In this document: positions 28,403 through 29,389 of the stretch, piece by piece
How the letters are laid out: every line of letters starts with the position of its first letter
Numbering within the stretch: the stretch's first letter is position 1
DNA from: Acidimicrobiia bacterium
GTDB taxonomy: Bacteria; Actinomycetota; Acidimicrobiia; Spongiisociales; UBA5794
Reading direction: 5' to 3'
NCBI GenBank assembly: GCA_030064765.1
Contig: JASJEG010000006.1
Span: forward strand, 1 to 35,115
DNA length: 35,115 nt
The notes under the pieces: generated by a model
Seen by the model: only the letters and a program-made list of their open reading frames with translations
Databases searched by the model: none
What the model was told of the DNA's origin: nothing
Made by a program: the position numbers and the translations under genes

Positions 28403-29389
28403 CTAGGCGTGGGGAAACCTGTCGAGACCTAGTTCAGCGATGGTTCCCGCCATGCGCTTGCGGGTGCCGGGACCGACGGGCATGCCAACGCCGTCGGCGA
28501 TCCGGTTCATCATCTCGAAGTTCCCGGTAACCGCAGCCGCATCCGCCGCAGCCGCCTTACCGAGAGTATCGACGACCGCGGTGCGCGCGTCCGCAATCCC
28601 GTTCCCAGAGAGCGTGGCACCTACGAAGCCGATCAGTTCTCTACCGCCCGGTAACAGGGGGTCGCCCTTGCCATCTGCGATGGGAAGGAGGTTGATCTGC
28701 TGGTTGGTTTCTTCGACGCTCCAACTGAGCATTCCGACATGGGCCAGAGTTCAGAAGAAACACTCATTGATGGCCGAGGTACGTGATGCCACCAACTCCG
28801 TCTGCGCTCTAGTGAGTCCGTGCGTCACAGCCGGATCGCTCATTTCCTCGTAGGTGAGGTACATCGGCCCATGGAGCATCTCCAGTGCAGCCATCTCAGC
28901 TGGGACCGCCGACAGTGACGTCGGGATCGTGGGCGGTCCAACCATCGGAACCCATGCTTTGGTGATAGTCGCCGGTGCTTCTGGGAGTTGCCGTGACGGC
29001 TCGCCGGCTGCCGCTTCGGGGAGAGGCTCGAGTTCCAGCTCTAGAGCCCGATGGAACGTATCGACCGTAGTCAGCTGTGACACGATCCCAATGAGTTCTA
29101 CGTACTGGCTGGCGCTCAGGCCCCGGCTCTCCCAGCTGACGATCAGCTCCTGGGTAATGGCGGCCGGTTGGTGAGCAAGCAGGGCTGCGGCCTCAGTCGC
29201 AGCAGCCGGCAGCGCACCCCTTTCCGCTGACTCCCCCGATTCGTATGCGGCGCGTGCCACCGCGGCGATTGCTACTCGTTCTTCTCCGGTCCACCAGGTG
29301 CCGGGCGCGGCCAGTCGATGCCACACGTGGCGAAACGCCTCAGCCCGGTCGTCGTCCACCGGCAAGGGAGCGGTTGAGAAGTCAAACAT
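28403..29389 (-). CDS. AhpD-like (carboxymuconolactone decarboxylase-fold) protein with in-frame TGA, probable selenoprotein
   Basis: Two open frames in the same reading frame are split only by TGA at 28751-28753. Read through, they give about 328 residues of an AhpD-like double domain. Before the TGA comes 'LTRAQTELVASRTSAINECFF', after it 'TLAHVGMLSW'. With Sec as residue 213 this reads C210-F-F-U213-T-L-A-H217, the AhpD pattern CxxCxxxH, with Glu198 twelve residues before C210 as in AhpD (Glu118/Cys130/Cys133/His137). The C-terminal part has the family's 'NFEMMNRIADGVGMP'. A stem-loop with a nine-pair stem follows the TGA. I chose ATG at 29389; TTG at 29398 is possible. If it is not Sec, the gene is a pseudogene cut at its active site, which the intact downstream frame argues against. 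Confidence 0.78.
28713..28753 (-). promoter_or_regulatory. SECIS-like element after the in-frame TGA
   Basis: In the mRNA, TGA at 28753-28751 is followed by a hairpin: UCG (28737-28735), a GA bulge, AUGCUC (28732-28727), loop AGUUG (28726-28722), GAGCGU and CGA (28721-28713). This is nine base pairs with one U-G wobble. The apical loop starts 25 bases after the TGA, within the roughly 16-37 base range of bacterial SECIS elements, and has a G in its first two bases, as those elements require. Confidence 0.6.

Follow-up and report, generated by a model that had tools for sequence, protein, structure and literature searches.

Locus and reading frame

The window, a stretch of 35,115 nucleotides from an Acidimicrobiia bacterium (contig JASJEG010000006.1), carries on its minus strand a candidate AhpD-related selenoprotein gene (28403..29389) of 328 codons including the one for selenocysteine (Sec), followed by TAG. 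Its frame starts with ATG at 29389-29387, ends with the TAG at 28405-28403 and is open except for one TGA at 28753-28751, with 212 codons upstream and 115 sense codons downstream. At the local base composition an open stretch of 115 codons is expected by chance with P of about 0.04, so on its own it is weak evidence. Numbered from the ATG at 29389, the TGA is codon 213 (28751..28753, minus strand) and lies in a CFFU motif of the form CxxU-xxx-H, with Glu198, Cys210 and His217 around it; Cys210 (28760..28762, minus strand), the presumed resolving cysteine, occupies an invariant column. In alignments with solved AhpD-like proteins the UGA, read as Sec, falls on the second Cys of CxxC.

The two neighbouring genes, encoding TypA and an Obg-like GTPase, accompany it in the two closest relatives alone and point to no functional link. 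At the far end of the window, adjacent minus strand ORFs at 3-2338 resemble FdrA-like, DUF2877-like and ring-opening amidohydrolase genes, which we take to be a possible cluster for purine or pyrimidine catabolism.

Family assignment

The read-through protein was matched to the NCBIfam equivalog NF041238 (AhpD_rel_CFYUT, "alkylhydroperoxidase-related (seleno)protein") with an E-value of 1.1e-82 and 278.1 bits, above the curated cut-off of 175 bits, over model positions 1-356 of 357; Pfam CMD matches around the CxxU motif. In a 2026 review (PMC13188914) NF041238, with its CxxU, is equated with "hypothetical protein 1" from the Sargasso Sea selenoproteome published in 2005 (PMC1088965), in which Cys homologues of that protein were also counted. 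The kind of gene is therefore already known, and the window gene adds one member to a catalogued selenoprotein family. It shares with that family the full-length match over the cut-off, the CxxU motif and a SECIS-like element with an apical G; it has CFFU where the model name has CFYU, and nothing essential differs. The sequence-only reading of this DNA had warned that automated annotation would split the gene, so that it is easily missed, which need not happen today since a dedicated NCBIfam model covers precisely this family.

Homologues and constraint across the TGA

A family set of 12 sequences from 11 genomes, the window included, was collected from its own phylum and the genome collection. 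It covers Acidimicrobiia-related organisms and Proteobacteria, and its sequences share 31-77% identity with the window protein; L034, which a contig end cuts down to an N-terminal fragment, was left out. TGA stands at exactly the column of codon 213 in all 12, which do not amount to twelve independent witnesses, L029 being close to L030 and L031 to L033, and no TAA, TAG or other stop occurs in the family region. One genome of the same class (G156) holds two diverged copies of the gene, L024 (G156:C80) and L026 (G156:C156), both with TGA at this codon.

Compared with the closest relative, L027, differences at first, second and third codon positions number 28/18/84 before the TGA and 15/15/54 after it. 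The patterns are alike, so coding constraint is the same on both sides and purifying selection persists downstream of the TGA. A pseudogene, in which a Cys codon mutated to TGA in a decaying gene, would explain the TGA itself, TGC and TGT being one base away from it, but is effectively refuted by the sequences, since the same TGA occurs in 12 of 12 at identities down to 31%, with no other stop or frameshift and with constraint unchanged beyond it.

Weighing against the selenoprotein reading, no Cys form of the NF041238 family was found among about 800 genomes (~400 from each of two phyla), and the Sec position is aligned with Cys only in distant AhpD-like PDB proteins; consequently the Sec/Cys exchange rests on those proteins and on the literature.

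A conserved stem-loop behind the UGA

Behind the UGA a SECIS-like stem-loop, AUGCUC-AGUUG-GAGCGU, spans 28716..28732 (minus strand). Its apical loop AGUUG (28726-28722) begins at the 25th base past the TGA and has G as its second base. Folding energy is unremarkable, slightly more stable than shuffled sequences (z -0.8 to -1.4). Across the 12 sequences the alignment is gap-free over the 72 bases around the TGA, the stem core GCTC/GAGC and the loop G are invariant, and stem pairing holds in 91.7% of cells versus 25-51% when one side is slid. Within the stem, all 12 sequences encode Leu221 as CTC and Ser224 as AGC, though both are six-codon residues. Each of the other residues shared by 11 or more of the 12 sequences and having at least four possible codons uses at least three of them. 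As these two codons are frozen while other conserved multi-codon residues vary, the alignment points to selection on the stem-loop at the RNA level. The weight of the case lies with the homologues, because every one of the 12 has both TGA at this codon and the frozen stem codons.

Since none of the core pairs varies, covariation offers no proof, and RNAalifold was uninformative. At gathering thresholds Rfam had no match in the window, a result that is no argument against a bacterial SECIS. TGA followed by 20 bases and GCTCnGTnnGAGC is found a single time in 3.16 Mb, at the codon 213 site.

Selenocysteine machinery in the genome

The genome of the window is a draft of 3.16 Mb in 242 contigs, 77.9% complete and 3.9% contaminated. 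It encodes tRNA-Sec (71.8 bits, anticodon TCA), SelB (294 bits, on C194), SelD (392 bits) and SelA, the last in two pieces at contig ends, each under the whole-gene cut-off: the C-terminal piece sits immediately upstream of selB and extends to the C194 end, and the N-terminal piece lies at one end of C105. The selD gene has its own in-frame TGA (L021:1531-1533, plus strand; genome place G000:C136:6609-7532) in the context SHGAGUACKLGP, so that its product is probably the Sec-containing SelD already known. Another AhpD-like gene, of TIGR01926 type, has an in-frame TGA at the same catalytic position, in NECHYULAHH (L020:1759-1761, plus strand; genome place G000:C202:16117-16671), with a hairpin after it (the GGCGCGGUCUGCGCC region), and is a probable second selenoprotein of this genome.

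In such a draft, machinery and gene might in principle derive from different organisms, a worry tempered by the close relative L027, where gene and SelB occur in one genome and the neighbours are those of the window gene. Of the 10 other genomes carrying the gene, 9 have SelB over the cut-off; in G399 (L030) none scored above it, though the gene is present, likely owing to incomplete assembly. Within the phylum SelB occurs in all four genomes with the gene, but in 228 of 396 genomes overall, so that this co-occurrence carries no statistical weight.

Reassignment of UGA, or its read-through as another amino acid such as Cys or Trp, is very improbable: nothing was found in its favour, and the frame would be open under such codes too; against it stand the ordinary TGA that ends the adjacent GTPase gene, the TGA that terminates the L027 homologue itself, the tRNA-Sec (anticodon TCA) and Sec enzymes of the genome, and the conserved SECIS-like element behind UGA 213. 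The gene seemingly broken by a stop codon is almost certainly intact, its stop being read as Sec in the active site of an AhpD-related redox protein. As a whole, the best explanation is a functional NF041238-family selenoprotein gene at 29389-28403, to which we give a probability of about 96%; at codon 213 itself, Sec insertion is putative and deduced from sequence.

These results bear out both what the sequence-only reading had observed and how it interpreted the gene. Its call of a probable selenoprotein is supported by the machinery, the TGA-bearing homologues and the conserved stem-loop. It had placed the TGA at the second Cys of CxxCxxxH, with Glu198, Cys210 and His217 at AhpD spacing, and those positions are correct and match the spacing of the Mycobacterium tuberculosis AhpD relay; its count of 115 codons past the TGA was reproduced. 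For the SECIS features it described, the loop distance of 25 bases is right and the stem-loop, with its small G-containing loop, is conserved. Both genomic checks it proposed came out in its favour: tRNA-Sec, SelA, SelB and SelD are all in the genome, and the column in the homologues holds TGA in all 12.

Predicted structure and domain layout

The full-length protein was modelled with confidence by AlphaFold2 with Sec as Cys (pLDDT 88, pTM 0.90). An AhpD domain with the CxxU motif was assigned to about residues 151-312 (28454..28939, minus strand) by the Pfam CMD match and by the C-terminal part of the model, which matches AhpD-type structures. The N-terminal AhpD-type domain (residues 1-120; 29030..29389, minus strand) is without cysteines, the first 209 residues of the protein containing none. 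When the N-terminal 130 residues were modelled alone (pLDDT 90), the best 16 structural matches were all AhpD/CMD chains, with Z up to 9.5. Because both halves match AhpD-type structures, the window protein is predicted to be a fused pair of AhpD-type helical domains. Foldseek alone, run with the model, gave no match below an E-value of 0.05.

Human Sestrin2 ranks first among whole-length structural matches (Z 16.9, rmsd 3.6 over 241 residues, 12% identity); single-domain AhpD-type chains reach a Z of at most 12.4. Sestrins and bacterial fused AhpD dimers have two AhpD-type domains per chain in an order shared with the window protein, and fused bacterial AhpD proteins with a cysteine-less N-terminal domain have been described as Sestrin analogues (PMC11429811). 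In Sestrin2, however, the catalytic site lies in the N-terminal domain, whereas in the window protein the active residue is C-terminal and Sec, and the catalytic Cys in the N-terminal domain by which Sestrins are recognised has no counterpart. As the identity is only 12%, no Sestrin membership is claimed. Single-domain AhpD-like selenoproteins of TIGR01926 type, such as the one in this genome (L020), have the same CxxU and the same fold, but are about 200 residues long and lack the second, N-terminal domain.

In the proteobacterial members (L029, L030, L031, L032 and L033) the N-terminal AhpD-type domain contains a CxxC (for example CELC, within CELCRQRK, of L031); the actinobacterial members, the window protein included, are without it. 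On balance we favour, with some reserve, a selenoenzyme that is a fused AhpD pseudo-dimer in Sestrin order, of which the N-terminal site was lost in the actinobacterial branch and the C-terminal site uses Sec.

Proposed mechanism and activity

In M. tuberculosis AhpD the relay involves Glu118, Cys130, Cys133 and His137 (PMC3141380). The window protein has the Glu-Cys-x-x-[Cys/Sec]-xxx-His spacing in common with it, and its predicted fold matches the AhpD structures 1GU9 and 1KNC with Z 8.1-8.2, at 7-8% identity; it differs in having Sec for Cys133, Phe212 for His132 and two fused domains versus one. Of the five-residue AhpD relay (Glu, Cys, His/Tyr, Cys, His) it thus keeps Glu198, Cys210, Sec213 and His217, and the position of Phe212 is Tyr in several relatives.

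The stem-loop, 19-35 nt past the UGA, would recruit SelB with Sec-tRNA-Sec, and SelB would deliver selenocysteine for insertion at position 213, where Sec213 may stand in for the second catalytic Cys of AhpD in the C-terminal domain. By analogy with AhpD, Sec213 would attack a peroxide or a disulfide, Cys210 would probably resolve it via a selenenylsulfide, and Glu198 and His217 may take part in a proton relay. The activity is most likely that of a thiol/selenol-dependent peroxidase or disulfide reductase; we infer the redox chemistry, substrate and electron donor of the window protein.

Compatible with the selenoprotein reading, and a serious though not the leading prospect, is a protein that carries Sec but is no peroxidase, reducing disulfides, organohalides or another substrate like the same-fold debrominase Bmp8. 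Bmp8 fits the predicted structure no less well than AhpDs do (Z 12.4 versus 11.4), the His132 of AhpD is replaced by Phe, and no substrate is reported for the NF041238 family (PMC13188914, PMC1088965); on the other side, the protein retains the AhpD relay at its Glu, its Cys, its second catalytic position and its His.

For the selenoprotein reading as a whole, the gene shows that a reading of raw sequence is able to recover a true selenoprotein. An uncultured Acidimicrobiia-related genome is added to a sparsely distributed family for which no known function has been listed since 2005. No publication was found that links the Sestrin architecture with the NF041238 selenoprotein family; added here are the predicted two-domain architecture, the Sestrin order, the predicted location of Sec in the C-terminal domain and the lack of cysteines in the N-terminal domain of the window protein, and this two-domain model offers a concrete target for a test of structure and activity.
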